NCBI RefSeq assembly: GCF_000321225.1
Contig: NW_004450331.1
Span: 752,635 to 816,634 of the forward strand
DNA length: 64,000 bases
Direction: 5' to 3'
DNA from: Odobenus rosmarus divergens
Lineage: Eukaryota; Chordata; Mammalia; Carnivora; Odobenidae
Every line of letters begins with the position of its first letter. Position 1 is the stretch's first letter. Positions 537 to 64,000 of the stretch are shown here, piece after piece. A program made the position numbers and the translations under genes. Under the pieces are notes generated by a model. It saw only the letters and a list, made by a program, of their open reading frames with translations. It made no database searches and was not told the DNA's origin.

Positions 537-3500
537 GTAAAGACGATTACCTGGCTCGTGGGATTCCTCCACATAGTATTTAAAGGTTCTCAGAGTTTGA
601 GTAAGTGAACTCAGAGTGGATTCCGTGCAACCAAAGAGACAGGAAATATTAAAGTGGGAACAAGCATTTGAGGTCATCATTAATCATGTGACTTCCTTTC
701 CCATCTGGGAGTCTGCCCTTCCACACCCCAACAAGCAGTCTCCTTTTGAATACTTCCAATACCGTGGGATTTATACTTTCTTGAGAGGCAGCTCTGTTGT
801 TAGCTGCTGGATTTGGCCCAAATCCGGTTGTTCGTATTATGTGTTGCTTTAGGAACTAAATGCGGACTCTTTATTTCCTCTGGATATAAAAAGGGGCATT
901 AATGAGAGATCCTCATGAAAAGAACAATGCACTAGGAACACGTCTACCTAGGTTTGGCCCACATCATTTTCCCTAGCCTCAGCTTATTAGCAAAACCTCA
1001 TTGACCATTCAGATTCCCCTAAGAGAAAATAATGTGTGATAGTCAGAAGGGTGTTGTAAGGAAAAAGGGAATTGTGCGCACTGTATTTGAGGAGTCTGCA
1101 GCTAGTTTTGTACTCGGGTTCCACTAGGCCTCTGGGGAGAATCCCGGGAAATAACCAGGCCTGAGGTTCTTAAGATTCAACCTCGAAGGTTGATCCAGAC
1201 TTCAACTGCCCTTCGAAGAAATAATTCACGTCCTTTTTCTTTTTCTTTCCTTATTTTTTAAAGATTTTATTTGAGAGACAGAAAGCGAGAAACAGAGCAT
1301 GAGCAGAGGGTGAGGGACAGAGGGAGAAGCGCCCAGGTTGAACACGTGATAGGGTTTTATAAGCAAGAGTATATTAGGTAGCTCATGAAATAGTCACAGG
1401 AAGTCCTTGGTTTTGTAAATCCTGTATCATGAACTTACATATACTGCTCATAGACAGTAATTCCTGCCTCAAAGTATTTGCCTTAATACTTGTAGGTCAT
1501 ACAAACATTAATACCATCTGTGGGGTAAATCAAGATTTTGACCAGAGGAGATTAGGGAGTTGTGCAGAGAATAGGTTCAGCCTATACGGGCATGTTCCCA
1601 GTTGAGAGTCATCGTAGAGTAATCGAAGAGGTTTCTTGTGCAGAATAAACCAAGAGACTCTCCACCAAGGGATGATGTTTCTGGGAGGGCCTGGTTAAAA
1701 TGCAGATCCATTACATAGGTAAGGTAGAACCCATGAACACGTTAAAGACTTGGTATATAAAATTCCCTGGGCTCGGTGAGCTAGGCTCCGCAGGACTGGT
1801 ATATCAGATGGAGAATTTTGGGGAAGCGAAAAAGACCAGTGCTGCTTCCAGAGTATCAGGAAAGTGTCCGGTGAGAACTGAACCTCCTGGGGTCCCAAGA
1901 TGGAGTCACTGGGGGGAGCAAAAACTGCCAAACCGAGACTGGTGGGACAGGGAGAGGGAGGAGGCCCCTGACGACCAGCTTGCCAACTTCACAGCTCTTC
2001 TCCAGACCTACCCTGCCCTTCAGTGTGGCTGTGCTTTTCTTCAGGTCAATCTCACTGAGCTGAAAGCCTTTCCCAACCCACCGAATGCCGTTACCAATGT
2101 TACCGCGGCCGTGATGGTCCTCCTGGCTCCCCGGGGCAGAGTGCCCAAAGACCGGAGTTGGAAAGCAGCTAGAGTCTTCATGGGAAAGGTATCAGACAGC
2201 CTGGCAGGATGAAAATCCCCACAGTTGCTCTTCCTCATACCATGGTCCTACTTGACAGCAAAAGGTGTTCAAACCAAAGGAAATCATCTTTGCATTCATC
2301 GAGTGTAATCTGCCGCGTGTGCTATAGACCTAGAATTTTTGTTTGCCAAGTTGGAGGTTAGCTTGGTGTTATAGCATACCTAAGTCAACACTAGCAGCAC
2401 TCAGAAGGTTGCTAATTATTTGCAAAATTATGAAAGTGGTTAAGTGTAGGAGGCAGAAAATTACATGGATTTCTTATTCTGGAAAAATGTTACTAATGCA
2501 CAAGAAGGTGAGGCAGAGGGGCTTTTTGGTAGGTGTTTTTCTTTTTCTGTTCTGTCTTTTCTTCAAAATGTGAATGCCTCCTGTGTGGGGACTGAATATT
2601 TTACCCTGGGATAGAAGAGGTTTTAAAAGTGTCCGTTGCTAATTCTTACTTCATATGGTAAAGACTGAACAAGTCAAACAGTAGGATAAATGCAGCTTGC
2701 CAATTTTGCCTTTGTAATGTGAGTCCTAAAAGCTGGTTTTAACTTTTGATCTTGGAATTTTCTCTGCAGCCAAAATGGGTTCATTGCAATCAGCCTTTTT
2801 GCTTTACAGGTTGATGATTTTTTGCAAGCGTTAATTAACTATGACAAAGAGCACATTCCAGAGAACTGTCTAAAAGTAGTAAATGAGCAGTATTTGAAAG
2901 ACCCAGAGTTCAATCCAAGCCTGATTCGGACCAAATCCTTTGCAGCAGCTGGTCTGTGTGCCTGGGTCATCAACATCATGAAGTTCTATGAGGTATCAGT
3001 CTTACTCCGCTGGGTATAGCTGTTACTCACAAGGACCATCAGGATACTAATTTCTGTAGTGGCAAAAAAAAAAGTAAAATAGTTTGAAGTTTAATTACCT
3101 GAATAAGATGAAGTTCTAAGAATGAGATCTGAAAGTGTCGGACTAACCAGAGTTCTACTCAGGAGGATATTTGAAATGTTTGAAACTATCTTTTAGGGTA
3201 GAGTGACCAGCTACTATAGATCAAATAGCAGTTAATTTGATTTGATTAGATAAAAACTTGCTGGTAGATTAATTATATTTCTTTTACGTTAAAATACTAA
3301 TTTTGTGGGGCGCGGGGGTGGCTCAGTCAAGCGTGTGCCTTAGGCTCGGGTCATGATCTCCAGGTCCTGGGATCGAGCCCCTCATCGGGCTCCCTGCTCA
3401 GCGGGGAGTCTGCTTCTCCCTCTCTCCCTCTGTGCGCTCTCACACACACACAGACTCTCTCTCTCTCAAATAAAATCTTTTTAAAATTTTAATAAATATT

Positions 3501-50200: not shown

Positions 50201-51442
50201 GTCATTAATTTTGCAAAAGTCTTAGCCAGTATTACCTCCAATATTTCTTCTCCTTTTTCTCCTTCAGGTTTTCCCATGATGTGTATGTTAAACTTTTTGT
50301 CATACATTTATTGGATATTCTTTTCCTTTTTTTTTTCATTCCTTTTCTCTTTTCACTTTGAAAAGTTTCTTTTGAGTTATCTTCAAGGTGGCTGATGATT
50401 CCCTTGATTGTGTCCAGCCTACTGAGGAGTCCATCAAAGACATACTTCATTTCTGTCATAGTGTTTATTTCTAGCATTTCCTTTCTTAGAATTTCTCTCT
50501 ACTTAAATTGTCCATATAGTCTTGCATGTTTTCCACTCAGGCATTAAGCATCTGCCTTCAGCTCAGGTCATGATCTCAGGGTCCTGGGATCGAGCCCCGC
50601 ATTGGGCTCCCNNNNNNNNNNNNNNNNNNNNNNNNNNNNNNNNNNNNNNNNNNNNNNNNNNNNNNNNNNNNNNNNNNNGACCTGAGCCGAAGGCTTTTTT
50701 TTTTTTTCTGATTTTTTTAGGCACCCCAAGCATAGTTATTTTTTTTTTTTTTTTTGATTTTTTTTAAATCTCTGCCATTCCTGAGTCTTTTTTTTTTTTT
50801 TGCTTTTTTTTTTCAGACTGTGTTGTCTTTCAGTGTTTTTTTTTTTTTTTTGTTTTTTTCCAGATACGATGTATCAGATAATTTTTTTTTTTTTTAGTAT
50901 TTTTTTAGTGTTAGGTTTTGTTTATGTGATTTTTTTTTTTTTTCCATTTTTTTTTTGCTGGAGCTTTTAGTGTTACTTTTTTTTTTTTTCTTCTTTTTTT
51001 CCTGTTTTTTTCTGTCTGTGTCCTTTTTTTTTTTTTGAAGTTTTTTTTTAAATAGAGTCAGTACCTTGCATTTTTTTTTTTTTTCCATTTTTTTACTGGA
51101 GTCTGTTGATGTGGTATTTTTTTTTTTTTTTTTGTTTTTTTAGTTTTCTATAATCCTATCATTATTTTTTTTTTTTTTCTGTTTTTTTCACTGGGGTTTG
51201 AACTTCAAAAGAGTTTGTCATTTATTTTTGTCTTCCTTATGCGAGAAAGGACATCTGGTTTTTTTTTTTTTGTCCTTTTTTTCTCCCACCTAAGGTCAGG
51301 TAAGGTTTTTTTTTTTTTATTTTTTTTTTGGGCAGGCATTTGTTAAGAGAACTTTTTTTTTTTTTATATTTTTTTTGGTTGCTTTCCTCTGGCCATATTT
51401 TTTTTTTTTTTTTTTTTTTTTTTCCACTGACAAAGCAGGAGT

Positions 51443-51476
<34 letters not shown>

Positions 51477-54400
51477 ATGAGAACCTGGTAAGTTTTTTTT
51501 TTTTTTATTCTTTTTTTTATGAAGGGCTTCCTAAGACTGGTTTTTTTTTTTTTTTTATTTTTTTAGCTCTGCCTCCAGCAATTAGCCTTTTTTTTTTTTT
51601 AATTTTTTTTTAGCTGTGATGGTCTGTATTCACCTTTTTTTTTTTTTTTGATTTTTTTAGTAGTCCTATGACCTCATTTCTTTTTTTTTTTTTTGAAGTT
51701 TTTTTGATTCACTTTTTTCCTGTTGTGATTTTTTTTTTTTTGACTTTTTTTTCTATAGATATGAAGCAGAAACCATTTTTTTTTTTTTATAGTTTTTTTT
51801 CTTCCTGTAGGTTCCCAATGTTTTTTTTTTTTTTTAAATTTTTTTTCTCTGGACCCTGGAGTGCAACCATTTTTTTTTTTTTTTTCTTTTTTTTTTTAAA
51901 ATAAATTTTTAAAGATTTTTTTTTTTTTTTTTTTTTTTTTAAGTGTGATATGATTCCATGAAATTTTTTTTTTTTTAAACTTTTTTTAAACATGAATTGT
52001 ATCACCATTTTTTTTTTTTTTTTTGGTTTTTTTTAGTTGGTTTTGACAAAGCACCAATTTTTTTTTTTTTTCGATTTTTTTTATCTGGAGGATGACCTCC
52101 TTCTGCGCCTTTCTGCGGCAGAGGGGAGCTTTCTAGATGACACCGAGCTGGTTTTTTTTTTTTTGATGTTTTTTTCAACCGTGGCTGAGATAGAACGCTT
52201 TTTTTTTTTTTGCCCTTTTTTTCCGGAGGGTCACAGTGCTCCTTTTTTTTTTTTTTTTTGGCTTTTTTTTGTGATCCAACTTGACAGCATCTTTTTTTTT
52301 TTTTTCTTGTTTTTTTTTTCAGGTCCTTTAATAAACTACTTTTTTTTTTTTTAGGGTTTTTTTTGGAGACGGAGGTGGTTGAACTTGTGCTTATCCTAAT
52401 TCAGCAGAGATCCAGTCATTCACATGAGACTCTTTTTTTTTTTTTTTTTTTTTTTTTGGCCAAATCAGAAGAAAATTGGAGCCTGCTGGCTTATATGGTC
52501 TAAAATCTAAGAAGGCTTAGCGTCCAGTTTTTTTTTTTTTACACTTTTTTTTGCCACCACAGGCTTCCCAGTCTTTTTTTTTTTTTTGGAATTTTTTTGA
52601 GCTGACGTTTTGTTTACAGGCTTTTTTTTTTTTTAGGCTTTTTTTGGGACAGTCACTTGCTGTGCTCATTTTTTTTTTTTTCCCTTTTTTTTAATGACAT
52701 TTCCTGAATGCCAGTTTTTTTTTTTTTTGAGTTTTTTTTCTGCTGAATGTCCAGCCTATGTCTTTTTTTTTTTTTCGCATTTTTTTCACTTTGGACTCAC
52801 ACAAGTGGCCATGAACTTTAAAATTCCATTGTTTCGGAATGAGAGGAACCTTATTTTTTTTTTTTTTTTTCCTTTTTTTTAAGTAATCTATTAATTCCCC
52901 AGTTTTTTTTTTTTTTCCACTTTTTTTATATGTTTGTCTTAATTTAAGCTTTTTTTTTTTTTTCCAATTTTTTTTATCCTTTTAAGTGACTTCTAGGTTT
53001 TTTTTTTTTTGGTATTTTTTTAGGCAATTAAGTAAATTAGGTCTTAGCTTTGAAGTTAGCTTCTAGTTGTCTCTTAAAATATCTCTTCCTATCTTCTTAG
53101 TATATTGCTATGTAGGGATTCCCCTCTCTGCTCTATGTTTTATTTCCTTTTATACACAAGTATGAAGAATCAACTTTATTTTAAAAAAAACTATCTTAAA
53201 AAGCTGTAGGACCAGCAATAATCCTAAATTTATTTTTTTTTTTTTTATTTTTTTTTTGAGTAAAAATGAATATGTTGGTTGATGGGTGGTGGTGGTATTA
53301 TTGTTGTTTTAATTATCTCTCTCAATTTTTTTTTTTTTTAATATTTTTTTTAAATGGAAAAACGTGAGCATATTTTTTTTTTTTTTCAAATTTTTTTAGT
53401 CATGAGAGTCTTCATATAAATTTTTTTTTTTTTGCCTTTTTTTTGGATATATTATTGCCCTTGGCTGTTTTTTTTTTTTTTGTTTTTTTTTAAAGTTATC
53501 GGCATTGAATTGACTTTTTTTTTTTTTAAGATTTTTTTCTGGGAGGTGATATAGCTGGGTTATTAAACCTGAAAAAGAGAGACGAGGCAGGGGAAGGTGA
53601 CATTACTCTTTTTTTTTTTTTAAAATTTTTTTCCAATCAGGTTTGTTTAATCTGTTTTTTTTTTTTTTCTAGTTTTTTTTCCATTCTTGCTGAAAACTCA
53701 ATTTTTTTTTTTTTTGGTTTTTTTTTTGAATCTAATCATTTTAGAAAAATTTTTTTTTTTTTATGCTTTTTTTGTTCTCTATTTAATGCAAATAATTTTT
53801 TTTTTTTTTTACATTTTTTTCATCAATTGGGTAAGTATAAAGATTTTTTTTTTTTTGTTATTTTTTTCTTACCTTGTTTGATCTCACCATTTTTTTTTTT
53901 TTTTAAATTTTTTTAAAGAAAAATCAATGAGGCCCGAGAAGGTTACAGACCAGTGGCAGCAAGAGCATCTCTTCTTTATTTTGTTATTAATGATCTCAGA
54001 AAAATTAACCCCATCTATCAGTTCTCTTTGATTTTTTTTTTTTTTAAATTTTTTTAAATTTTTAATTTCATGAGTTCTACCTGTTTCTGGAAGTTTAGAA
54101 TTTATTTTTAAGCAATCGGGTATATTTTTTTTTTTTTTCTGATTTTTTTGTGAGGGAAAAAAAAAAAACCCTTTTTTTTTTTTTTACTTTTTTTTTTGAT
54201 TTGCATTAAGGCTCTAAGATTTTTTTTTTTTTTGGCTTTTTTTTACATTTGTTTTTGTTCTTAAACTTTTTTTTTTTTTTATTTTTTTTTAGGGAATTCT
54301 TGTGATTCCTTTATTTTTTTTTTTTTTAGGTTTTTTTTATAAAGATTTCTCATATTATTTTTTTTTTTTTTTTGAAATTTTTTTAACAACTATTCATTAA

Positions 54401-57400
54401 GTCACTCTTTTTTTTTTTTTACATTTTTTTTCTTTGGTTCATTCTTATGCATGGTTTTTTTTTTTTTATTATTTTTTTCCTATTTAAAAAAAAAAAAAAG
54501 GTTTTTTTTTTTTTCAGATTTTTTTTAAATTGCCCAAGAATTCATATTTTTTTTTTTTTTTGTAGTTTTTTTACTCATGGTTGTTGTGATCCCAATTTTT
54601 TTTTTTTTTACTTTTTTTTATTGTTCCTCTGGGCAGTATTCATTCATTCTGTCAGGCAGTTTTTAAACAAATAGCCGTTGAGATCAATCTTTTTTTTTTT
54701 TTTTGTTTTTTTTGTACAATTTCAAAAAAAAAAAAATTTTTTTTTTTTTAGATTTTTTTTGGTGTGTGTGTGTGTGTAAAAGTTTTTTTTTTTTTTAGAG
54801 TTTTTTTTAAGGTTGGGAGGGACTGTTTCATTTTTTTTTTTTTGAACTTTTTTTGGAGGAAGTGACATTGTAGTTGATTTTTTTTTTTTTTAGTTTTTTT
54901 TGGAGTGTTTAGAGAAAACAAGGATTTTTTTTTTTTTAAAGTTTTTTTGATTCCAGGTGGTAAATGAATCTTTTTTTTTTTTTTGTAATTTTTTTGGGAG
55001 AAGATGACAAGACAGGAGTTTTTTTTTTTTTGAAATTTTTTTTCATGGGAGACCTCATTGCCAGGTTTTTTTTTTTTTATTATTTTTTTTCTGCAAAAAG
55101 GAGCCATTGAACTTTTTTTTTTTTTTGACTTTTTTTAAAAGACTCAAAAGTGAATAGACTTTTTTTTTTTTTTGAATTTTTTTTAATCAGCCCTTGGAAA
55201 TGGATTTTTTTTTTTTTTTAATGTTTTTTTTCGAGAATAACTAGCAGGTTTCTTTTTTTTTTTTTTTAGGTTTTTTTATTCTGAGAAGCACAGAGTGGTT
55301 GGATTTTGGAACAACCACATTGCGTAAAGAGTAATAAAATTAAATCATTTTTTTTTTTTTAACATTTTTTTAATAGGAAAACCAGACTATTACATTTTTT
55401 TTTTTTTACAGTTTTTTTCTCTTCATGAACACTGTTGCCAATTTTTTTTTTTTTAGATTTTTTTTTTGAATCCAGCCACATATAAAAATTTTTTTTTTTT
55501 TTGTCTTTTTTTAATTTATGCCAGGAATGCAAGCTGGTTAAACATTTAAAAATAACACAAGTCTTCATATGAATAGAACAAATTTTTTTTTTTTTATGAT
55601 TTTTTTATTGGATGCAGAAAAAGAATCTGTTTTTTTTTTTTTCCTGTTTTTTTAAAGAAAAAAAACTGAGCAAACTTTTTTTTTTTTTTAACTTTTTTTT
55701 GTGAAAAAGGTCATCTACAGAAATTTTTTTTTTTTTTTATTTTTTTTGTTGAAAAATTGAATGCTTTCCTTTTTTTTTTTTTTAATGTTTTTTTACAACA
55801 CTTCTATTCAGAACTGCCCTGCAGGTTATTGCCAGTACAATAATAAAATAAAAGGCACAGACATTTTTTTTTTTTTTGAAATTTTTTTTTTTTTTTTTTT
55901 TTTTTCCCCACTTTTTTTTTTTTTATGTTTTTTTTAAATCTTAAGAAATCTACCAAAATTTTTTTTTTTTTAAGATTTTTTTTTTCAGCAAGATGGCAGG
56001 ATATATTTTTTTTTTTTTAAATTTTTTTTTTTTATATATGAGGTACAAACAATTTTTTTTTTTTTCTAATTTTTTTGTCTATTTACAGTAGCTTCCAAAT
56101 TTTTTTTTTTTTTTAGTTTTTTTTTTAACAAAACAAGATCCATGTGTTTTTTTTTTTTTAACATTTTTTTGACAGACCATGGAGAGGTATACCTTTTTTT
56201 TTTTTTAGAATTTTTTTTATTACTGAGATGCCAGTTCTTTTTTTTTTTTTTTTTAGATTTTTTTCCATCTCAATCAAATCTCTGAAGGCTTTTTTAGTAG
56301 AAATCGGCAAGGTGATTCTAAAATTTGTGTAGAATTTTTTTTTTTTTAAAATTTTTTTAATTTTGAAGAAGAATAAGTAATTTAGAAAACTTACAGCACA
56401 TGATTTCAGCACTTATTAGAAACCTATGTTTTTTTTTTTTTAGAATTTTTTTTAGATAACAAGAGTCCAGGGGTATTTTTTTTTTTTTATGATTTTTTTA
56501 TTTTTGGCAGTGATACCAAGACAATGAAGAAGGGATAGTTTTTACAACAAATGGTGCTGAGAAAACAGGTTTTTTTTTTTTTATAATTTTTTTCTTAACC
56601 GTTACATCACACTTTATTTTTTTTTTTTTCAAATTTTTTTAGCAAAGCTATAAAATTTCTAGGTTTTTTTTTTTTTAGAGTTTTTTTGGGCTTCAGGTTA
56701 GGCAAAGTTTTTTTTTTTTTTTTTAGATTTTTTTAAATTGAATCTTATCAAATTAAATTTTTTTTTTTTTCAAATTTTTTTAAGAAAATGAAAAGACAAG
56801 CCATTTTTTTTTTTTTTTTCCTTTTTTTACGTGTATCTAATAATGCACTTATTTTTTTTTTTTTAAAGTTTTTTTACAACTCAGACAACTCAAACAATTT
56901 TTTTTTTTTTTAGACTTTTTTTATGCTAAGTTATGTGTACTGCCCTTTTTTTTTTTTTTAAATTTTTTTTATTCATCAGAAAAATGCAAAGTTTTTTTTT
57001 TTTTTAGTATTTTTTTAGACCAAAAAGAATAGCCACGCTTGTCCAAGACCGGCGGTAACAAGTACCGCACAGGCACCGTCCCACAATTTTTTTTTTTTTC
57101 TGATTTTTTTACAAGGCAGTGAAACCATTTTGGTTTTTTTTTTTTTGGTTTTTTTTTAAGTTAAACGTAAACGCGTTCAATTTTTTTTTTTTTGTTTTTT
57201 TTTTGTCTGGGGCTAGCTAGACATCAGGCCTTGGTTTCCAGCCTTTACCAGTCACTTTAAATTCCCCAGGCTTTCAACATGCTGTTCCTCAGAGCAATTG
57301 AGCAGGCTGACAAGGTAGAGGTTTTTTTTTTTTTTGTCTTTTTTTTCATGGAGAGCATCACCTACGCTTTTTTTTTTTTTTCCAGTTTTTTTCTGTTTGA

Positions 57401-60400
57401 GAGGGACAAGCTCACTTTTTTTTTTTTTATGGTTTTTTTGGTAAGGAAATCCGTCACTTGAATTTTTTTTTTTTTCCCCTTTTTTTTGTTTATTATAAGC
57501 TTTACTTACTTTTTTTTTTTTTCTGATTTTTTTCTTGGAAGCCCTTGGTAGCCTAATTTTTTTTTTTTTTTCCTTTTTTTAACTTGGACGTATGACCGCC
57601 TTTTTTTTTTTTTTTTGGTGTTTTTTTGGGTGGGTATGCACTTGAGCTGGTTTTTTTTTTTTTCACCTTTTTTTGCAGATCAGTGAGACCTCCGCTTTTT
57701 TTTTTTTTTTCTGTTTTTTTTCTCCCGGGTACTACCAGGGAGATTTTTTTTTTTTTTAATGTTTTTTTCAGATCTAGATGGTCCTAGGAGTTTTTTTTTT
57801 TTTTTAAATTTTTTTGACTGCGTAAAAGAGCTCCAGGTTTTTTTTTTTTTTCTTTTTTTTTTTCTATTTTTTCATTCTTTTCTCTTTTTTTTTTTTTTAC
57901 TGTTTTTTTAGATTTTAAGATTTTATTTATTCTTTTTTTTTTTTTCGAGTTTTTTTGGAGGGGAAGAAGGAGAGGGAGATTTTTTTTTTTTTAGACTTTT
58001 TTTACTGAGCAGGAAGCCCAACGCAGGGCTCAGTCTCACAGCCCTGATCATCCCCCGAATCAAAATCGAGAGTTTTTTTTTTTTTTGACTTTTTTTTCCA
58101 GGTGCCCCAGCAAAAGATTGTTTTTTTTTTTTTATGCTTTTTTTAAGAAGAAAACATTGAGGACTGAATGCCTAGATGAAATAAGCATGTTGTCCTTCCA
58201 TTAGTTTGTTTGCTTTTTTTTTTTTTTTGTCTTTTTTTATCTAGATGGAAGATCAATGCCTTTTTTTTTTTTTTCCCATTTTTTTCATTTTATAAATACC
58301 TGCTGTTATTTTTTTTTTTTTATGATTTTTTTTACTTTCGGTGTTTGTAGATTCCTTTTTTTTTTTTTGGAATTTTTTTGTGTAGGTGCTTCATGATGTA
58401 TGTTTTTTTTTTTTTCAAGTTTTTTTAAAATGAAATGGTTTTTATACGTTTTTTTTTTTTTTAGTATTTTTTTAGGATTGAGAATATGTGACATGCTTTT
58501 TTTTTTTTTCACATTTTTTTTTTAAAACAGTCTCCTTGGGGCACCTGGGTGATGCAGCCTGTTAGGCATCCAGCTCTAGATTTCGGCTCATTTTTTTTTT
58601 TTTCTGCTTTTTTTTTGAGCCCCAAGTCGGACTCTGTTTTTTTTTTTTTTTCTGTTTTTTTGTCTCTCTCTCTCTTCCCCTCCCTTTTTTTTTTTTTCCC
58701 CTTTTTTTCCCCCACCACTCACTCTCTTTCTTTTTTTTTTTTTTATTTTTTTTTTAAAGCCAGAGATAAATTATAGCTCATCTCAAATCCTGACAATTTT
58801 TGTAAATCAAAGCTTCATATATATATATGTGGCAATTATTTGTTGAAATAAATTGAATTAAGAAAAAAATCATTTTTTTTTTTTTTCCTTTTTTTTTGTT
58901 ACTACCTATAATACATTTTTTTTTTTTTTTTTGTTTTTTTTTTGCATAAAACTCAAACATTTTACCTTTTTTTTTTTTTTTATTTTTTTTATGTGAAAGT
59001 TAGGAATATTTTATTTTTTTTTTTTTACCCTTTTTTTTGTTCTGTGGACCTACCAGTTTTTTTTTTTTTTTTTCTAATTTTTTTTTCCATTTATACTGTT
59101 TGTTTAGTTTTTTTTTTTTTACAATTTTTTTCTATTTTCTTAATATAATCTCACTTTTTTTTTTTTTCGTTTTTTTTTCCTGGGTGGCTCAGTCATTTAA
59201 GTTTTTTTTTTTTTATTTTTTTTTTGGTCATGATCTCAGGGTTGTGATTTTTTTTTTTTTTCCCTTTTTTTTCTCCACATGGAGCCTGCTTAAGATTTTT
59301 TTTTTTTTCCTCTTTTTTTGCCCGTCCCCCACCTCTCTTAAATTTTTTTTTTTTTATATTTTTTTTTTTATTAGATGTAATTTCTGTATTTTTTTTTTTT
59401 TTCAATTTTTTTTCTACCTTTTGTTTAGTAATTTGGTTTTTTTTTTTTTGAGGTTTTTTTAATTTGTGCAGCAAGTTTTAAGATTTTTTTTTTTTTACAG
59501 TTTTTTTCTAAGTATGAATGTATATTTCAATTTTTTTTTTTTTAGGCTTTTTTTAAAATTGGGGGAAAAAAGCAGTCTTTTTTTTTTTTTGTTATTTTTT
59601 TTTTCAGTCAAGGTTTTGAGATCATTTTTTTTTTTTTAGATTTTTTTTTTCAGCTTTAGAACAGAGAGGTATTTTTTTTTTTTTTCAGTTTTTTTGGTCC
59701 TGCCTATTCAATCCTGTTAAATCGTGACTGCTTCCTGGGTCCTGATTTTGATGTAAACTAAATGACCCTTTTTAATTTATGTATCCTCAAGATTTTATTG
59801 AGAAAGAAAGAGATAAACCCTCTGGAATTGGATTTCCTGCTTCGATTCACAGTTGAACACATTTACTTGAGTCCTGTTGACTTCCTCACTACTCAGTCAT
59901 GGAGTACTCTCAAGGTAGGTGAAGAAGACAGTATTTCACTTTCTAAAACTTACTTCAGTAGATATATTCTGCAGGACCTTTGCTAAAAGTCAAGGAACAG
60001 AAATGAGCATTGTTGTCAATTTACCTAAATCAGGTTTGTTTTCTTTTTTTTTTATAATATTTGTCCACTTTTTCCAAATACTTTTGTTAATCATTTTTTT
60101 TTTTTTTAGTTTTTTTTCAGTATAACTTGTTTAAGCAGAATTTTTTTTTTTTTAGAATTTTTTTATTCGTCAACCCCAGGTACCGATTCTTACCTCATTT
60201 TTTGGTCAGAAGATCCTACTGTTAAAAGAGTTTATTTTTTTTTTTTTTGGGTTTTTTTGTTGGTGAAGCAGCTGCCTTCGGCTCAGGTCGTGATCCCAGG
60301 GTCCTGGGATCGAGCCCCGCATCGGGCTTTTTTTTTTTTTTGGAGTTTTTTTCTCCCTCTCCCACTCCCCCTACTTTTTTTTTTTTTTTCGCTTTTTTTC

Positions 60401-63400
60401 TCTGTCAGATAAATAAATAAAATTTTTTTTTTTTTAAAATTTTTTTTTGACATTATAAAAAAAAAGAGTTTTTTTTTTTTTTCTTTTTTTTTTCTTAAAG
60501 ATGTTTGTTGTATGCTTTTTTTTTTTTTTTATTTTTTTTTTTCTTTTTCTAAGAAGGAAAATTTTTTTTTTTTTTTAATATTTTTTTTCCCTTATTTTTA
60601 GAGTATATTTTTTTTTTTTTTTTATAGTTTTTTTTATTAGGTTATGTAGAATTATAATTTTTTTTTTTTTTGTTTTTTTTTCAGGGTCTCAGCAGAAAAC
60701 AGATTTTTTTTTTTTTTGGGTTTTTTTTAAAAGTTTAAGAAAGAGTGTATTTTTTTTTTTTTTTAAGATTTTTTTGGGAATCAGCCAGGAATGGGGATTT
60801 TTTTTTTTTTTAAAGTTTTTTTTACTGCAGCTGTAGAGAAGTGAATTTTTTTTTTTTTGCCATTTTTTTGGAGCTGTGACCTCCCGTAGACGTTTTTTTT
60901 TTTTTCCAATTTTTTTCACCAGAGGGACGGCGCTGAGGAAGGGATACCCTTGCATCTCTCTCCTCCAGCCCTCCAGTCTCTGGCCATTTTTTTTTTTTTG
61001 CCATTTTTTTCTAGGCCAGAGAACCAGGGAGCTTTTTTTTTTTTTTCCTCTTTTTTTACCCTCTTAGCAGGGCAGGAAAGTTTTTTTTTTTTTCCAGTTT
61101 TTTTACCAAGACTCTCTGGGCCAGCGCTTTTTTTTTTTTTTCGATTTTTTTACTAGTCTCTTTCTCAGACTCTATTTTTTTTTTTTTCGTCTTTTTTTTG
61201 CCCCGTTGTATGACAGGCACTCGCCGTCCTGGAAGAGTTTCGAGGCATAGACCGAGATGTGGAAGGATTTTTTTTTTTTTTGAGGTTTTTTTCGGAATCC
61301 GCGTGCCCGGAGAAATTTTTTTTTTTTTAAGATTTTTTTAAGAAAAGTTTGATACAGAAGCTTTTTTTTTTTTTTGCAGTTTTTTTTGACAGAATGACAT
61401 ATGCTCTCATTTTTTTTTTTTTGCATTTTTTTTGACCTAGGGGAGACTTAGTCCTAGGGGGCGAGGAGCATCTGGTGGAGGCATGTGTGGTCCCTGTTGA
61501 TGATTTTTTTTTTTTTTTGATTTTTTTATCGTGTCATCATTACTATTGTTTTTTTTTTTTTTTCGCTTTTTTTTGTGCAGGTCTGTCGTCAGGCTGATTT
61601 TTTTTTTTTTGAAATTTTTTTTTCTGACATCAGGAGAGGAGATGTTTTTTTTTTTTTAATATTTTTTTCCGAGAGATGGGTGTCAGCAGAGTTTTTTTTT
61701 TTTTAGCATTTTTTTTCCCAGTGCAATTTCCACTGTCTTTTTTTTTTTTTTGCATTTTTTTTCCGACGATTTTGCACATCAAACATTTTTTTTTTTTTTT
61801 CATTTTTTTACTAATAGTCCTATAACTTTACATTTTTTTTTTTTTAAAGTTTTTTTCCCTGTCTATGTCTTGGTCCGTGTTTTTTTTTTTTTTGCCTTTT
61901 TTTCTTCTAAATGGTAACTTGCGGCTTTTTTTTTTTTTTTCGTTTTTTTTTTTGAATTCACCGACCAAAGAGTTTTTTTTTTTTTTCCTTTTTTTTTCCT
62001 TGTTCAACAGCAGTGACACATTTTTTTTTTTTTCCTCTTTTTTTTCCAACTAATTTCCCCTTTGCAGTTTTTTTTTTTTTTCCTTTTTTTTAAGTTAATT
62101 CTGCTTAGTAGTACTTTTTTTTTTTTTAATCTTTTTTTGCGGGAAAATAATCCCTGCTTAATTTTTTTTTTTTTTATTTTTTTTTCCCCAAAAAGCATTT
62201 GTATATTCTTTTTTTTTTTTTCAGGTTTTTTTATTGCACTGTGGCAAATCTAATGTTTTTTTTTTTTTTAATTTTTTTTCTGGCAGGAGATTTGGGGGAT
62301 ACTTTTTTTTTTTTTGGCATTTTTTTGTACGCAAGGGGGGGGGGTCTCATTTTTTTTTTTTTTGGATTTTTTTCCTCTGATTTTCAGAGCTTCTAATTTT
62401 TTTTTTTTTTTCATTTTTTTCGATGCATAAATCTAGCTGGATTTTTTTTTTTTTTTGAAATTTTTTTATGTAATGAACGTAGTTTGCTTCTTTTTTTTTT
62501 TTTTGATTTTTTTTGATCCAAGTTGTGGCACTTTTCATTTTTTTTTTTTTTGATTTTTTTTTTGACATTATCCTCTTTTATAGGTTTTTTTTTTTTTAAA
62601 ATTTTTTTGCCAAGTATGTGGGGAGGACCAGTTTTTTTTTTTTTAAAGTTTTTTTAGAAAGCAGCCCGGCCACGCCCATTTTTTTTTTTTTGTCTTTTTT
62701 TTTGGACGCCCTTAAAGACCTAGAGTTTTTTTTTTTTTGGCCTTTTTTTTTGCCTTCCCACCCTCCCTCTCGTTTTTTTTTTTTTCAACTTTTTTTTCAG
62801 TTCACAGCTAGTTACTTTCTTTTTTTTTTTTTCTCTTTTTTTTTCTCTCTCTCTCCTCTCTTTTTCTTTTTTTTTTTTTGGAGTTTTTTTAAAATGTAAG
62901 GCTAATAACACTGTTTTTTTTTTTTTTGTTTTTTTTTAACATTCCTCCGGTTGGCATAATTTTTTTTTTTTTTGTGCTTTTTTTCGCCTTCTGACTATAT
63001 AGGGGCCTTTTTTTTTTTTTCTGCTTTTTTTTGTAATCTTGTGCCCCCTGTGACTTTTTTTTTTTTTTTAGTTTTTTTCTATTCGATTGTGCAGGGCACT
63101 GTTTTTTTTTTTTTCTGGTTTTTTTTTCTGCGCAGCCTGCACCGAGAATTTTTTTTTTTTTGAGCTTTTTTTTGCCTGTGCTCGATTCAAGCATGTTTTT
63201 TTTTTTTTAGGCTTTTTTTCTTACCCAGTGAGCCAATTTGTTTTTTTTTTTTTTTGATATTTTTTTCATGTTGCTCGTTTTTATGAGGGTTTTTTTTTTT
63301 TTCTCCTTTTTTTGTTAAGAAAGCTAAATAACAATATTTTTTTTTTTTTAAAATTTTTTTAGCTCCATTACCATAAAACCAGATTTTTTTTTTTTTACAG

Positions 63401-63731
63401 TTTTTTTTAATGCTCCGGAGGAGGCCGTAGTTTTTTTTTTTTTATGCTTTTTTTTGAAACAACAGAAGTTGAGTTTGTTTTTTTTTTTTTAGTGTTTTTT
63501 TAGGTGGCAGCAGTAACCACAGATGGACATGAGACACGGGATTCCAGACTGCTCACCTCTCCTTGATTCACTTTTTTTTTTTTTATGTTTTTTTTTCCCA
63601 CAGGCAAAAGACTGGGGTTTTTTTTTTTTTTGGGATTTTTTTACAATGTGTCTTTAGGACAAGGTCAGGAGGTGGTGGCAGAAAAGGCCCTGGAGAAAGC
63701 TTCCAAAGGAGGTTTTTTTTTTTTTCTCCTT
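423..63731 (+). CDS. DNAH9: Axonemal dynein heavy chain, internal part of gene (16 exons, spliced)
   Basis: Sixteen + strand exons join into about 828 codons of a dynein heavy chain (full proteins are about 4,500 residues), covering the stalk, the microtubule-binding domain, AAA5 and most of AAA6. Outer-arm heavy chains are the ATP-driven motors on ciliary doublet microtubules; DNAH9 is the beta-type chain that partners DNAH5 in distal respiratory cilia. Seen directly: exon ORFs flanked by AG acceptors and GT (once GC) donors, with codon phases agreeing at every junction. The protein matches my memory of DNAH9 nearly residue for residue, for example [15 protein letters not shown] and LTKHQ followed by [21 protein letters not shown]17 and DNAH11 are close relatives, so family assignment is near certain but the paralogue is less so. 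Start and end of the gene lie outside the window. The last seven exons lie in the T-overprinted region or between its tracts. Confidence 0.85.
537..2044 (+). other. Intron with one CanSINE fragment
   Basis: GT-AG intron of about 1.5 kb (donor gtaaag, acceptor cttcag). Apart from a short antisense CanSINE fragment at 1250-1331 I recognise no repeat or gene in it. The open frames across it are short and have no family resemblance. Confidence 0.8.
1250..1331 (-). repeat. CanSINE fragment, antisense
   Basis: T-rich start then aaagattttattt and agagcatgagcagagggtgagg, which is the complement of the 3' half of a carnivore tRNA-Lys SINE. The tRNA-like head is missing, so it is a truncated copy. Confidence 0.7.
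2045..2188 (+). CDS. DNAH9: DNAH9 exon: end of CC1 and start of microtubule-binding domain
   Basis: 48 codons, phase 0, acceptor cttcag, donor gtatca. It contains the [11 protein letters not shown] segment; the conserved proline pair marks the junction between stalk helix CC1 and the globular microtubule-binding domain in dyneins. It continues through [20 protein letters not shown] and ends FMGK. A longer open frame runs through this exon from 1700, but only the segment between the splice sites has family resemblance. Confidence 0.9.
2810..2992 (+). CDS. DNAH9: DNAH9 exon: core of microtubule-binding domain
   Basis: 61 codons, phase 0, acceptor gctttacag, donor gtatca. It opens [20 protein letters not shown] and ends [12 protein letters not shown]. 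The [15 protein letters not shown] segment is the hallmark last helix of the microtubule-binding domain before the return helix CC2. Introns on either side are short (621 and 1,971 bases). Confidence 0.9.
3307..3490 (+). repeat. CanSINE, sense
   Basis: tRNA-Lys-like head (ggtggctcagtcaagcgtg), body (gggtcatgatctccaggtcc), CT-rich tail and AATAAAATCTTTTT end. It is one of the older-looking copies: the head is mutated and I see no clear target-site duplication. Confidence 0.85.
4661..4856 (-). mobile_element. CanSINE, antisense, with 13-bp target-site duplication
   Basis: Poly-T start, aaagattttatttattcat, then the complement of the SINE body ending gagccacccaggcatccc. It is flanked by the direct repeat agatagaaatctt at 4648-4660 and 4857-4869, showing insertion by L1-type target-primed retrotransposition. 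The intact duplication suggests a fairly recent insertion. Open frames within it are not host genes. Confidence 0.95.
4964..5065 (+). CDS. DNAH9: DNAH9 exon: start of return stalk helix CC2
   Basis: 34 codons, phase 0, acceptor ttttcag, donor gtgagt (perfect consensus). The peptide [20 protein letters not shown] then [13 protein letters not shown] is strongly helical and begins CC2, the antiparallel partner of CC1 in the stalk. Confidence 0.9.
5290..5765 (+). repeat. MIR element split by a younger CanSINE
   Basis: 5290-5493 reads as a tRNA-derived MIR (ggattctggagccagactgc, ctctgagcctctgtttgctc, ggattaaatgag). Its 3' end resumes at 5720-5765 (gggcacatggtaagtgctta) after the CanSINE at 5506-5707. 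The order of nesting gives the relative ages: the MIR is ancient and the CanSINE is carnivore-specific. Confidence 0.75.
5506..5707 (+). mobile_element. CanSINE, sense, with 12-bp target-site duplication
   Basis: Head gcttgggtggctcagtcagt, body cagctcaggtcatggtctca, CT-rich stretch, then AATAAATAAATAAAATCTT and an A tail. The direct repeat aagaatttagca occurs at 5494-5505 and 5708-5719. It is inserted inside a MIR. Confidence 0.95.
7921..8116. mobile_element. hAT-Charlie MITE-like element (MER5/MER20 type)
   Basis: Contains ctggttctccaggtgtgttc, then acagattctcagaccccacc and ccccaggtggttctgataca, ending ccaagccctggtttt. This near-palindromic arrangement with ctggtt at one end and its complement logic at the other is typical of the small non-autonomous hAT elements of placental mammals. 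The exact subfamily cannot be settled by eye. Confidence 0.6.
8256..9632 (-). mobile_element. 5'-truncated L1 (antisense), ORF2 C-terminal part and 3' UTR
   Basis: The minus strand encodes the C-terminal part of L1 ORF2p (for example [18 protein letters not shown] and [18 protein letters not shown] at 8720-9091), followed by the carnivore L1 3' end and an A tail (T run at 8256). An 18-bp direct repeat, ttagcctgccttagtttt, flanks it at 8238-8255 and 9633-9650, proving a target-primed insertion. ORF2 is broken by internal deletions (near 9172 and near 9340, judged from memory of the consensus) and by a 74-bp tandem duplication, so it is dead. Confidence 0.92.
9335..9482. repeat. 74-bp tandem duplication inside the L1
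   Basis: The block beginning tgtcattctgtcggttgtct and ending cttttatcttgatga occurs twice head to tail (9335-9408 and 9409-9482) with no difference I can see. The L1 consensus has one copy, so this is a local duplication. Confidence 0.9.
10130..10320 (-). repeat. MIR remnant, antisense
   Basis: The stretch ttatttccattttgcagatg, aaactgaggcacagagaggt and caagtaagca is the complement-strand core of MIR. Ends are approximate. Confidence 0.6.
11516..11650 (+). CDS. DNAH9: DNAH9 exon: stalk helix CC2 (followed by a GC donor)
   Basis: 45 codons, phase 0, acceptor ttacctag. The peptide runs [20 protein letters not shown] to [14 protein letters not shown] and is a clear heptad coiled coil, the remainder of CC2 before AAA5. 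The donor reads GAG|gcaagt, a GC donor matching the strong consensus AG|GCAAGT. Using the nearest GT, four bases further on, would shift the frame, so the GC site is the likely true donor. Confidence 0.9.
12075..12260 (-). mobile_element. CanSINE, antisense, with 10-bp target-site duplication
   Basis: Starts gatttctttaaagattttta and ends gagccacccaggtgccccg. The repeat attaaataaa flanks it at 12065-12074 and 12261-12270. The body is more diverged than the other copies. Confidence 0.85.
12355..12780 (+). repeat. Old L1 3' UTR fragment, sense
   Basis: Characteristic L1M-type 3' end phrases: acaaaatgccacatgttgca, tgattccatgtatacgaaat, ctaaaaaccactcagtgacg, and a final ctcagtaaagctgttattttt. No coding potential remains. 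Confidence 0.7.
13440..14320 (+). repeat. L2-like LINE fragment, sense
   Basis: Phrases such as ttcactggcctgcatgatct, actagaatataagctcctca and catagatacttgttgaatga follow the order and spacing of the 3' part of L2. Open frames of up to 135 codons here are LINE relics or chance frames, not genes. Confidence 0.65.
15793..15995 (-). mobile_element. CanSINE, antisense, with 18-bp target-site duplication
   Basis: Poly-T start, aaagattttacttattcatt, agcagggggagaggcagagg, ending gagccacccaggtgt. The 18-base repeat cctggaaatcagatttta occurs at 15775-15792 and 15996-16013. Confidence 0.95.
16696..16866 (+). CDS. DNAH9: DNAH9 exon: start of AAA5
   Basis: 57 codons, phase 0, acceptor tttcag, donor gtaagc. 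The peptide starts [20 protein letters not shown] and continues [15 protein letters not shown], the conserved entry into AAA5 of axonemal heavy chains. The CGDVLL...AFVSYVG block packs the base of the stalk onto the ring. A longer open frame extends past the donor but loses similarity there. Confidence 0.9.
17335..17485 (-). repeat. Possible MIR remnant, antisense
   Basis: Sequence such as agagaaaactgagtcatgga and tctgacctcctgatttccat resembles the complement of MIR. It is heavily decayed, so the call is tentative. Confidence 0.4.
19800..21262 (+). repeat. L2/CR1-like LINE fragment, sense
   Basis: A broken frame encodes relics like [15 protein letters not shown] and [14 protein letters not shown], matching the order of the C-terminal reverse-transcriptase part of CR1/L2 LINEs. 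It ends with ccatggagcagggattttgt and gtagatgctcagtatat, like the L2 3' end. The open frame at 19801-20274 lies at its 5' part and is not a host gene. Confidence 0.55.
21265..21860 (-). repeat. Old L1 3' part, antisense
   Basis: On the + strand it reads tttcatcaccccatgtccat, ttcatcagttgatgggcatt and catggtaactctatgttta, the complement of the L1 ORF2 end and 3' UTR of ancient L1M families. All frames are broken. Confidence 0.7.
22150..23260 (-). repeat. L2-like LINE fragment, antisense (probable)
   Basis: Phrases such as gggagtcattgaaggatttt, gagatagtaagtaggtgcag and agggagctggataagagcg look like the complement of the LINE family seen in sense at 19800-21262. Assignment rests on recall of the consensus and is uncertain. 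Confidence 0.4.
23936..24128 (+). repeat. CanSINE, sense, lacking its tail
   Basis: Head gggggcacctgggtggctca, body tttcagctcaggtcacgatt and a CT/C-rich 3' half, but it stops near ctcatgctcaggcac without the AATAAA-rich tail. Confidence 0.85.
24460..24643 (+). mobile_element. CanSINE, sense, with 17-bp target-site duplication
   Basis: Head gggcgcctgggtggctcagt, body ggctcaggtcaagatcctgg, tail ctcaaataaaatct followed by A. The direct repeat aataataaaccagatgt is at 24443-24459 and 24644-24660. The copy is close to consensus and probably young. Confidence 0.95.
24874..25109 (+). CDS. DNAH9: DNAH9 exon: AAA5 core
   Basis: 236 bases beginning in phase 0 and ending after two bases of a glycine codon (GG|gtatgt). 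The peptide [20 protein letters not shown] continues through [34 protein letters not shown] residues (here [18 protein letters not shown]) and IKWIKNKYG. The NEGLPSD and [11 protein letters not shown] blocks are signature AAA5 motifs of axonemal dyneins. Confidence 0.92.
25110..26264 (+). other. Intron without recognisable repeats
   Basis: GT-AG intron (gtatgt / ttttaag), AT-rich, about 1.2 kb. I see no SINE, LINE or RNA gene in it. Confidence 0.75.
26265..26387 (+). CDS. DNAH9: DNAH9 exon: AAA5
   Basis: 123 bases; it completes the split glycine codon, then reads [20 protein letters not shown] and ends GRNTIKKG plus two bases of lysine (AA|gtaagt). [10 protein letters not shown](E)E is the Walker-B-like strand of AAA5, followed by the IDPVLDPLL segment conserved in all dyneins. 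Confidence 0.92.
27755..28140. repeat. CT microsatellite followed by AT-rich low-complexity tract
   Basis: 27758-27805 is (CT)n-like. From about 27820 to 28135 the sequence is nearly all A and T with repeated tatata/ataaat units, ending in a (TA)n run near 28115-28130. Confidence 0.9.
29557..29760 (-). mobile_element. CanSINE, antisense, with 13-bp target-site duplication
   Basis: Long T run, aagactttatttatttattt, ending gagccacccaggcacccc. Flanked by ctcaaggagttaa at 29544-29556 and 29761-29773. Confidence 0.95.
30100..30311 (-). mobile_element. CanSINE, antisense, with 12-bp target-site duplication
   Basis: T run, aaagatttatttatttttga, ending gagccacccaggtgcccct. Repeat gtagatgtgatt at 30088-30099 and 30312-30323. 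The body differs from its neighbours (cacacacctgtgtgtgaaca), so it is another subfamily. Confidence 0.92.
32820..33250 (-). repeat. Decayed L1 3' part, antisense (tentative)
   Basis: Pieces such as ggttattacaagccatgctg, aaattgttttccaaagtgtt and acatgctcaccactagtgtg follow the order seen on the complement of an L1 ORF2 end. Heavily diverged. Confidence 0.45.
37460..37625 (+). repeat. MIR remnant, sense
   Basis: Reads agacccaggttctagtccca, gctctgccactgagctctgt and gaccttggacaagtcataaa, the core of MIR. Confidence 0.65.
39690..40135 (-). repeat. Old L1 ORF2 end, antisense
   Basis: Complement-strand phrases gacattcccaccagcagtgt, catttccctgatgactaatg and gcttattggccatttgtata are standard for the 3' end of L1 ORF2. 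Frames are broken. Confidence 0.7.
40257..40385 (+). repeat. L2 3' end, sense (tentative)
   Basis: Reads gagcagagactgtgcctgtt, acagcctggcatggtgtagg and ttgggtgaatgaatg, like the last 120 bases of L2. Confidence 0.5.
40665..40869 (-). repeat. CanSINE, antisense
   Basis: T run, aagattttatttattcgaga, agcatgagcggagggagggg, ending gagccactcaggtgcccc. Full length; flanking duplications are obscured by T runs on both sides. Confidence 0.9.
42971..43164 (+). repeat. CanSINE, sense
   Basis: Mutated head gggacttctagggtggctca, body cttcggctcaggtcatggtc, tail aataaataaaatttaaaaaa. It lies about 330 bases upstream of the next exon's acceptor. Confidence 0.9.
43498..43702 (+). CDS. DNAH9: DNAH9 exon: AAA5 C-terminal part
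   Basis: 205 bases; the first base completes the split lysine codon, then [40 protein letters not shown] and [17 protein letters not shown] follow, ending ERPDLEKLK|gtaaaa in phase 0. [12 protein letters not shown] is nearly invariant in dynein heavy chains and [12 protein letters not shown] is the link to the strut helices. This is the last exon before the N gap. Confidence 0.93.
44184..44208. repeat. (CA)n microsatellite
   Basis: About twelve uninterrupted CA units. Confidence 0.9.
44368..44530. mobile_element. hAT-Charlie MITE-like element
   Basis: Begins gtggttctcaaatggtggtt, then gaacatcaggatcagctggg and gggccacagaccagatccca. The opening and body resemble MER5/MER20-type elements; the 3' end is poorly conserved. 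Confidence 0.55.
44984..50530 (-). mobile_element. Old, nearly full-length L1, antisense, inactive
   Basis: Read on the minus strand from about 50.5 kb down: an ORF1p-like segment ([19 protein letters not shown] at 49984-50307), an ORF2 endonuclease relic ([17 protein letters not shown] and [13 protein letters not shown] at 48842-49096), a reverse-transcriptase relic ([20 protein letters not shown] and [18 protein letters not shown] at 47507-47689), a downstream piece ([18 protein letters not shown] at 46883-47092), then 3' UTR-like sequence and an A tail (T run near 44984). Stops and frameshifts abound. A younger CanSINE has inserted at 49341-49538. The 5' end is near the N gap and may be incomplete. 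Confidence 0.8.
49341..49538 (+). mobile_element. CanSINE, sense, inserted in the old L1
   Basis: Head ggacgcctgggtggctcagg, body cagctcaggtcatgatctcg, tail aaataaataaatacaatctt. Near-identical flanking repeats caagaaacctaagt (49327-49340) and caagtaacctaagt (49539-49552) mark the target site. Confidence 0.92.
50535..50611 (+). repeat. CanSINE fragment ending at the N gap
   Basis: ctcaggcattaagcatctgc, then the body to gcattgggctccc where the Ns begin. It lacks the first bases of the head and shares the unusual gcattaagcatctgcc variant with the copy at 49341. Confidence 0.85.
50612..50678. other. Assembly gap (67 N)
   Basis: Sixty-seven undetermined bases. Left flank is a sense CanSINE; right flank is an antisense CanSINE end. 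The T lattice starts 16 bases after it. Confidence 1.
50679..50727 (-). repeat. CanSINE end, antisense, overprinted
   Basis: gacctgagccgaaggc is the complement of a SINE body and aggcacccc its head. The 24 bases between have been replaced by T13-ctga-T7, and the spared ctga is exactly what the consensus has there (ctgagccaccc). Confidence 0.85.
52037..52201 (+). CDS. DNAH9: DNAH9 exon: strut helices after AAA5 (partly overprinted)
   Basis: Begins after ttttag with LVLTKHQ, which joins in phase to ERPDLEKLK of the previous exon. Then come 24 overprinted bases (52058-52081), [20 protein letters not shown] and TELV, a second overprinted block (52152-52175), then TVAEIER. The overprinted blocks replace exactly eight codons each. 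The donor lies inside the block at 52199-52222, so the end at 52201 (one lysine codon later) is inferred from the family. The segment forms part of the long helices that buttress the stalk. Confidence 0.8.
52202..53892 (+). other. Intron, overprinted
   Basis: Both splice sites fall within overprinted blocks. The only long clear stretch is 53022-53232, ordinary AT-rich intronic sequence with nothing recognisable. Confidence 0.6.
53893..54034 (+). CDS. DNAH9: DNAH9 exon: strut helix end, with a one-base insertion
   Basis: Clear sequence from 53915 encodes [27 protein letters not shown] and, after a frame shift, NPIYQFSL. The run at 53999-54005 has one A too many for the expected Arg-Lys-Ile (AGA AAA ATT), so the exon as given is 142 bases instead of 141. 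Start and end lie in overprinted blocks and are inferred; the spared bases taaa (53904-53907) fit the expected Ala-Lys codons. The [17 protein letters not shown] block is a family signature. The insertion is more likely an error than a real mutation, given the surrounding damage. Confidence 0.75.
54035..57269 (+). other. Intron, overprinted, nothing recognisable
   Basis: About 3.2 kb of lattice sequence. The 23-base windows read as AT-rich intronic DNA, but too little is left to name repeats. The acceptor attccccag at 57261-57269 is intact. Confidence 0.6.
57270..57440 (+). CDS. DNAH9: DNAH9 exon: AAA5-AAA6 linker region (partly overprinted)
   Basis: 171 bases, phase 0. It starts [17 protein letters not shown], then a block replacing codons of the MQGRVSI type (spared bases TGTC fit), MESITYA, a second block with spared CCAG fitting Thr-Ser, LFERDKLTF, and a third block with spared ATGG fitting the Met-Ala of a QMAFQ motif. 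The donor gtaagg at 57441 is intact. All three blocks preserve length exactly, so the family alignment has no gap. Confidence 0.85.
57899..58108 (-). repeat. CanSINE, antisense, overprinted
   Basis: Fragments gattttaagattttatttat, gaagaaggagagggaga, actgagcaggaagcccaacg and ccaggtgccccagcaaaag appear in SINE order between T blocks. Confidence 0.7.
58540..58760 (+). repeat. CanSINE, sense, overprinted
   Basis: ttggggcacctgggtgatgc, atccagctctagatttcggc, gagccccaagtcggactctg and a CT-rich piece appear in order between T blocks. Confidence 0.75.
59176..59350 (+). repeat. CanSINE, sense, overprinted
   Basis: cctgggtggctcagtcattt, ggtcatgatctcagggttgt and ctccacatggagcctgctta appear in order between T blocks. 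Confidence 0.75.
59792..59914 (+). CDS. DNAH9: DNAH9 exon: AAA6 lead-in (clean, not overprinted)
   Basis: 41 codons, phase 0, acceptor cctcaag, donor gtaggt. The peptide [20 protein letters not shown] then [20 protein letters not shown] matches the family without interruption. It lies in the longest run of skipped lattice sites (about 59696-60093), so it is an internal control showing the underlying sequence is a normal functional exon. Confidence 0.93.
59915..61216 (+). other. Intron, mostly overprinted, with one CanSINE
   Basis: Donor gtaggt, acceptor tatgacag. Clean until 60093. A sense CanSINE sits at about 60235-60440. The lattice resumes one base out of register at 60094. Confidence 0.65.
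60235..60440 (+). repeat. CanSINE, sense, overprinted
   Basis: gcagctgccttcggctcagg, tcgtgatcccagggtcctgg, gatcgagccccgcatcgggc and the tail agataaataaataaaa are readable between T blocks. Confidence 0.85.
61217..61410 (+). CDS. DNAH9: DNAH9 exon: AAA6 (partly overprinted)
   Basis: Opens [17 protein letters not shown], then a block whose spared bases GAGG fit the expected Trp-Arg, ESACPEK, a block whose spared AAGA fits Gln-Glu, KKSLIQK, another block, and DRMTYAL. The end at 61410 is inferred: the arginine codon is split, with A at 61409 visible and its last base opening the next exon. PDRMTYALR-type sequence is a family landmark at the start of AAA6. Confidence 0.82.
61411..62583 (+). other. 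Intron, overprinted
   Basis: The donor is inside a block; the acceptor at 62582-62583 (ttatag) is visible. The clear piece at 61434-61503 shows ordinary intronic sequence. No repeat identified. Confidence 0.6.
62584..62732 (+). CDS. DNAH9: DNAH9 exon: AAA6 P-loop-like region (partly overprinted)
   Basis: Starts with the last base of the split arginine codon. A block follows whose spared AAAA fits Glu-Lys of the expected VEEKLG, then AKYVGRTS, a block, ESSPATP, a block over the FFILSPG-type P-loop remnant, and DALKDLE. The donor is overprinted; the end at 62732 is inferred from the glycine codon split with the next exon. Confidence 0.78.
62733..63603 (+). other. Intron, overprinted
   Basis: The donor is hidden, the acceptor cacag at 63599-63603 is visible. 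The CT-rich piece at 62835-62866 is simple sequence. Nothing else can be identified. Confidence 0.6.
63604..63731 (+). CDS. DNAH9: DNAH9 exon: AAA6 (partly overprinted), last exon in window
   Basis: Completes the split glycine (G|GC), reads KRLGF, then a block whose spared GGGA fits Ser-Gly, [20 protein letters not shown] and SKGG. The final block spares CTCC, fitting Leu-Gln of the expected HWVILQ, so the end is inferred at 63731. With the two exons before it the length sums to 157 whole codons. Downstream exons are outside the window. Confidence 0.82.
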
Positions 63732-64000
63732 TTTTTTATTTCATCTTCTTGGAAAAAACTTTTTTTTTTTTTAAGGTTTTTTTGGTGCAGAGTCGTCCAG
63801 GCCAATTTTTTTTTTTTTTCCTCTTTTTTTATGGTGATTTGCAGAGTCCTCGGTTTTTTTTTTTTTCTGGTTTTTTTTCCACAGGTGTTAGGAGACTCAG
63901 TTTTTTTTTTTTTCCATTTTTTTTTGAGGGATTTTCTAGCCATTGTGTTTTTTTTTTTTTAATATTTTTTTGAACCCTCTTACTCTCCTGACTTTTTTTT

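Follow-up and report, generated by a model that had tools for sequence, protein, structure and literature searches.

A dynein gene and a lattice of T blocks

The window, that is, the whole stretch of 64,000 bases analysed here (G000:C68:752635-816634), belongs to a parent assembly of 2.38 Gb in 2085 contigs. To judge from the protein matches of its exons, the gene at this locus belongs to the DNAH9/11/17 group of axonemal dynein heavy chains and is perhaps the ortholog of DNAH11. From window position 50695 onward, the sequence carries every 47 bases a block in which 13 T and 7 T flank four other bases (T13-N4-T7), and at least three exons of the gene lie in the affected stretch, two of which bear T blocks (Table 1). 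The order of the exons along the plus strand is that of DNAH9 (window position/DNAH9 residue: 2807/3218, 52085/3619, 59783/3761 and 76192/4106), which indicates that the damaged contig is in its right place and adds weight to the two weak alignments that run through blocks. For the exon at 52085, the next match after dynein is the unrelated azurin at E 0.92. For the far-end exon, all six hits are dyneins; 23 of its residues align ungapped with 23 residues of DNAH9 and DNAH17, the damaged codons match in number, and a spared ATC encodes the isoleucine expected there.

Table 1. Features of the dynein locus and of the lattice, in window coordinates (positions above 64000 were read in the parent assembly)
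Feature	Position	Strand	Remarks
Clean exon, outer-arm-type dynein heavy chain	2807..3007	+	DNAH9 (8j07_n9) 3218-3278, best match, E 1.2e-22
N67 assembly gap	50612..50678		Lattice contig begins at 50679
Lattice segment A, sites k=0..191	50695..59695	+	T13-N4-T7 starts at 50695+47k
Dynein heavy chain exon with T block	52085..52198	+	38 residues ungapped to DNAH9 (8j07_n9) 3619-3656, E 0.44
Clean 398-base stretch	59696..60093	+	Eight consecutive untouched sites; phase moves by -1
Dynein exon in the clean stretch	within 59783-59911	+	DNAH17 5.3e-08, DNAH9 2.6e-05
Lattice segment B	60094..64000, on to 76473 (C68:829107)	+	Starts at 50694+47k
Far-end exon with T block	76192	+	DNAH9 residue 4106, E 0.13

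Shape and periodicity of the lattice

Counting a site of the grid 50695+47k as changed when all 18 core positions are T, we find the exact block at 239 of the 283 sites in the window, with the other 44 untouched. Read on past the window in the parent assembly, the whole lattice comprises 549 sites, namely 475 blocks and 74 untouched sites, and none of the 549 is half-changed. The preliminary description of this DNA, which had reported a 47-base lattice of such blocks with some sites skipped and had proposed to compute the autocorrelation of T and the phases of the blocks, is thus borne out in the shape of the pattern. T autocorrelation at multiples of 47 lies above that at all other lags except lag 1, and a scan of periods 20-129 for T and A gives a score of 188 at period 47 inside the lattice, against best scores of at most 1.7 in each of four flanking stretches. 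The chance level is set by 3 block matches in 73,366 bases of clean flank, with overlapping starts at 16100-16102, and the T fraction at block positions of the untouched sites (n=74) is 0.30. Apart from edge positions that are blurred by the phase slip described below, spacer and spared positions of the 239 window blocks have background composition. A natural tandem repeat was rejected because the units of these blocks, slip-blurred edges aside, have no common sequence beyond the T blocks.

Extent and ends

Rather than ending at 64000, as the preliminary description had it, the lattice covers window coordinates 50695-76473 (25.8 kb) and is cut by the window end. On the left, its first block begins 16 bases past the N67 gap and hence less than one period from the contig start. 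On the right, the final block (k=548) meets no N gap, and the lattice stops 23 bases ahead of a SINE poly-T tail. The next site, at 76497, does have 13 T, but its 7-base part reads AGATTTT, and this T run is likely natural, resembling the poly-T tail of a reverse SINE. With its left end at a contig start and its right end next to a SINE tail, the lattice seems to reflect damage to an intermediate contig. The present contig is gap-free as far as 96375; since the lattice ends inside it, one whole contig as the damaged object would need a later join near 76474-76511.

The N67 gap itself has the end of a forward SINE-like element on one side and the start of a reverse one on the other, in T-rich sequence (50540-50700) that looks like a single L1 running on across both sides. 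Gaps nearby measure 238, 209, 164, 67, 65 and 70 bases (139,366 bases examined), which suggests a scaffolded assembly with estimated gaps. We noticed post hoc that the first block, at C68:803329, has the 0-based start 803328 = 512 x 1569, as about 1 in 512 would by chance; a start at a multiple of 512 is hard to square with the later slip.

A single phase slip and the untouched tiles

The absence of drift over at least 190 periods that had been claimed for the lattice holds for k=0..191 and fails afterwards, with one slip of -1 by k=200. According to their edge letters, 143 of the 239 window blocks are compatible with phase 0 alone, 73 with phase -1 alone and 23 with either; the first group is confined to k<=191 and the second to k>=200, and every informative block beyond the window keeps phase -1. 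The blocks therefore have two phases, with the switch between k=191 and k=200. The slip interval is also the longest clean run of the lattice (eight sites, 398 bases instead of the 399 expected), and 20,000 shuffles of 74 untouched sites among 549 never produced a run of eight. Within this clean stretch, the sole A or T run of at least 6 is the T10 at 60044-60053. A genome-wide search for a second clean copy, with a 401-base query over the stretch and skipping common words, returned only the stretch itself. We infer that the slip reflects either a later local rewrite from clean data that differed by one base or a restart of the tiling.

Without this run of eight, the sparing of tiles fits random placement (66 of 541 sites; lag-1 p=0.07 and P(max run >=4)=0.09 in 5,000 shuffles). 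No sequence feature clearly predicts the untouched tiles, the smallest of 104 uncorrected position tests giving p=0.006, and neither does any spacing rule, where the smallest of 128 modulus tests also gives p=0.006. We also discarded polishing as a source of single untouched tiles, on the argument that any short read restoring one tile would span its neighbours 23 bases off as well.

Letters overwritten, not inserted

Judged by alignment, the letters of the blocks are overwritten rather than inserted, because the alignments of two dynein exons and of the best SINE hit (165 bases) run through the blocks without gaps. Agreement with the SINE model was counted for 13 hits with E<=1e-4, out of 19 at E<=10, to what looks to us like a carnivoran CAN-SINE; it holds at 60 of 74 cells for the spared four bases, which look native, at 746 of 904 for the spacers and at 227 of 279 for untouched sites. 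The SINE hits besides the best contain 61 insert and 18 delete columns within masked blocks, and 23 insert and 70 delete columns in the spacers too; as masked positions were read as N, gaps at them carry a low cost and are poor evidence in both directions. Native sequence is recognisable under the blocks and in register, both in the dynein alignments (weak, with E 0.44 and 0.13) and in the SINE cells. Dynein exons and SINEs thereby support the earlier view that each block turned 20 of 24 bases to T and spared the middle four. They also share one phase throughout with introns, barring the -1 slip, just as the preliminary description had said of a phase that ignores all three.

Search for other lattices

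In the whole assembly, the pattern V-T13-VVVV-T7-V occurs 124 times forward, 74 of them inside the lattice, and 55 times in reverse, with 23 forward and 23 reverse matches to a control pattern read backward. The 50 remaining forward matches about equal the 55 reverse ones, which makes a second lattice of comparable size unlikely, so that the assembly likely holds no other such T or A lattice; a short one could hide in the background. A two-block pattern was found at one locus in viral_contigs and at least 115 in genome_contigs. Among the matches listed, none of these 116 viral and prokaryotic loci has a lattice, for which we required two blocks at a distance of 47, spared bases other than TTTT and at most 12 T in the spacer. 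A literature search by title found no description of such a lattice.

Public records do hold other A or T runs that appear non-biological, namely homopolymer junk contigs (L031 and L072), but these are nearly pure homopolymer over kilobases and have no lattice with native sequence in between. L031 (Flavobacterium paronense) is a deposited contig of 0.999 A over kilobases, and L072, which lies with L079 on one contig of Algibacter miyuki, is 0.995 T over kilobases. For L079 the N fraction is 0.625, perhaps through masking by the collection itself.

Origin of the lattice

The lattice pattern is real, and it is a data artefact, not biology. An overwrite in a single phase that ignores gene structure, with native bases in register, points to a computational artefact, and we consider it very probable that fixed 13- and 7-base fields of 47-base tiles read T through assembly or data handling. 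The blocks are T on the plus strand, 74 of the 549 tiles are spared whole, and the remaining sequence looks native and in register. The earlier impression of a machine-made pattern accords with this: the block is exact at 475 of the 549 sites and half-changed at none, and its phase is blind to gene structure. Single untouched tiles amid changed neighbours count against the artefact explanation, which does not account for them.

Mechanistically, some software that stored or rewrote a single contig in records of 47 bases may have lost two fields of 13 and 7 bases, and decoding would then have filled these with a default letter. Afterwards, polishing, gap closing or another local rewrite would have exchanged about 398 bases for clean sequence with one base fewer. 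Given the slip, the overwriting by software or data handling probably came before the final edits. T is 00 in the UCSC 2-bit format and 11 in A0C1G2T3 codes, with A = 00 on the other strand. Zeroing of bytes in the final 2-bit file was rejected, as it had been in the preliminary description: such zeroing would require a constant phase and a period and block edges in multiples of 4, whereas the period is 47 and the fields are 13 and 7. The -1 slip also speaks against corruption of a final file, since it implies an edit of the sequence or a new start of the tiling while the fault was at work or later. A derivation by hand of the 13/4/7 mask from 2-bit word layouts was without success.

We know of no program that produces a T13-N4-T7 mask, and of no step in Pilon or in K=48 graph assemblers that would yield it. 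The K=48 graph assembler that the preliminary description had offered as a speculative source finds no support. In such assemblers (the DISCOVAR/Supernova line), edges overlap by K-1 = 47 bases, the step of the lattice, but edge lengths vary and should not give a constant 47-base step; "K 48" has zero occurrences among the literature matches listed. Pilon's local reassembly has a default K of 47, equal to the stride, and it exchanges local sequence in the way that the 398-base clean patch would call for, but the passages considered mention no writing of T at set offsets (PMC4237348). A K=47 program fits the number as well as a K=48 assembler does, and the match of Pilon's K with the stride is so far only a coincidence of numbers.

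The exact uniformity of the blocks and their restriction to a single locus in 2.38 Gb, so far as can be told from the pattern counts, would also suit a deliberate position-keyed mark or test corruption put in by someone, such as a watermark or planted control. We regard this as improbable, since it would be odd for a designer to leave 74 of the 549 tiles untouched in a random-looking way or to let the phase slip by -1 just once, within the longest clean run, and the left end lies at a contig start, as expected of a fault at the assembler stage. Sequencing reads with failed cycles could, by reasoning only, give fixed T-run lengths around a fixed spared gap, but they are contradicted by one phase over 9 kb and another over 16 kb; with random read starts, failed cycles cannot give such long constant phases, and we give this source very little credence. 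That the animal itself carries such a tandem or inserted structure has nothing in its favour beyond the presence of the pattern in the assembly and is next to inconceivable, because coding and repeat sequence lie in register under the blocks, which would require a change to T, in step, of 20 bases in every 47.

Consequences for the gene and for genome data

It seems rather unlikely that deposited vertebrate assemblies more generally suffer from an undescribed fault, or a deliberate mark, by which individual contigs are overwritten one tile after another. If they did, other public genomes with hidden lattices and broken gene models would pass ordinary quality control, and a scan for 47-base T autocorrelation would reveal such damage elsewhere. 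The lattice matters for data quality only and has no biological interest of its own. At this locus, the dynein gene model is unreliable, and any protein, alignment or selection test that draws on the T-blocked exons would carry phenylalanine runs and false changes.
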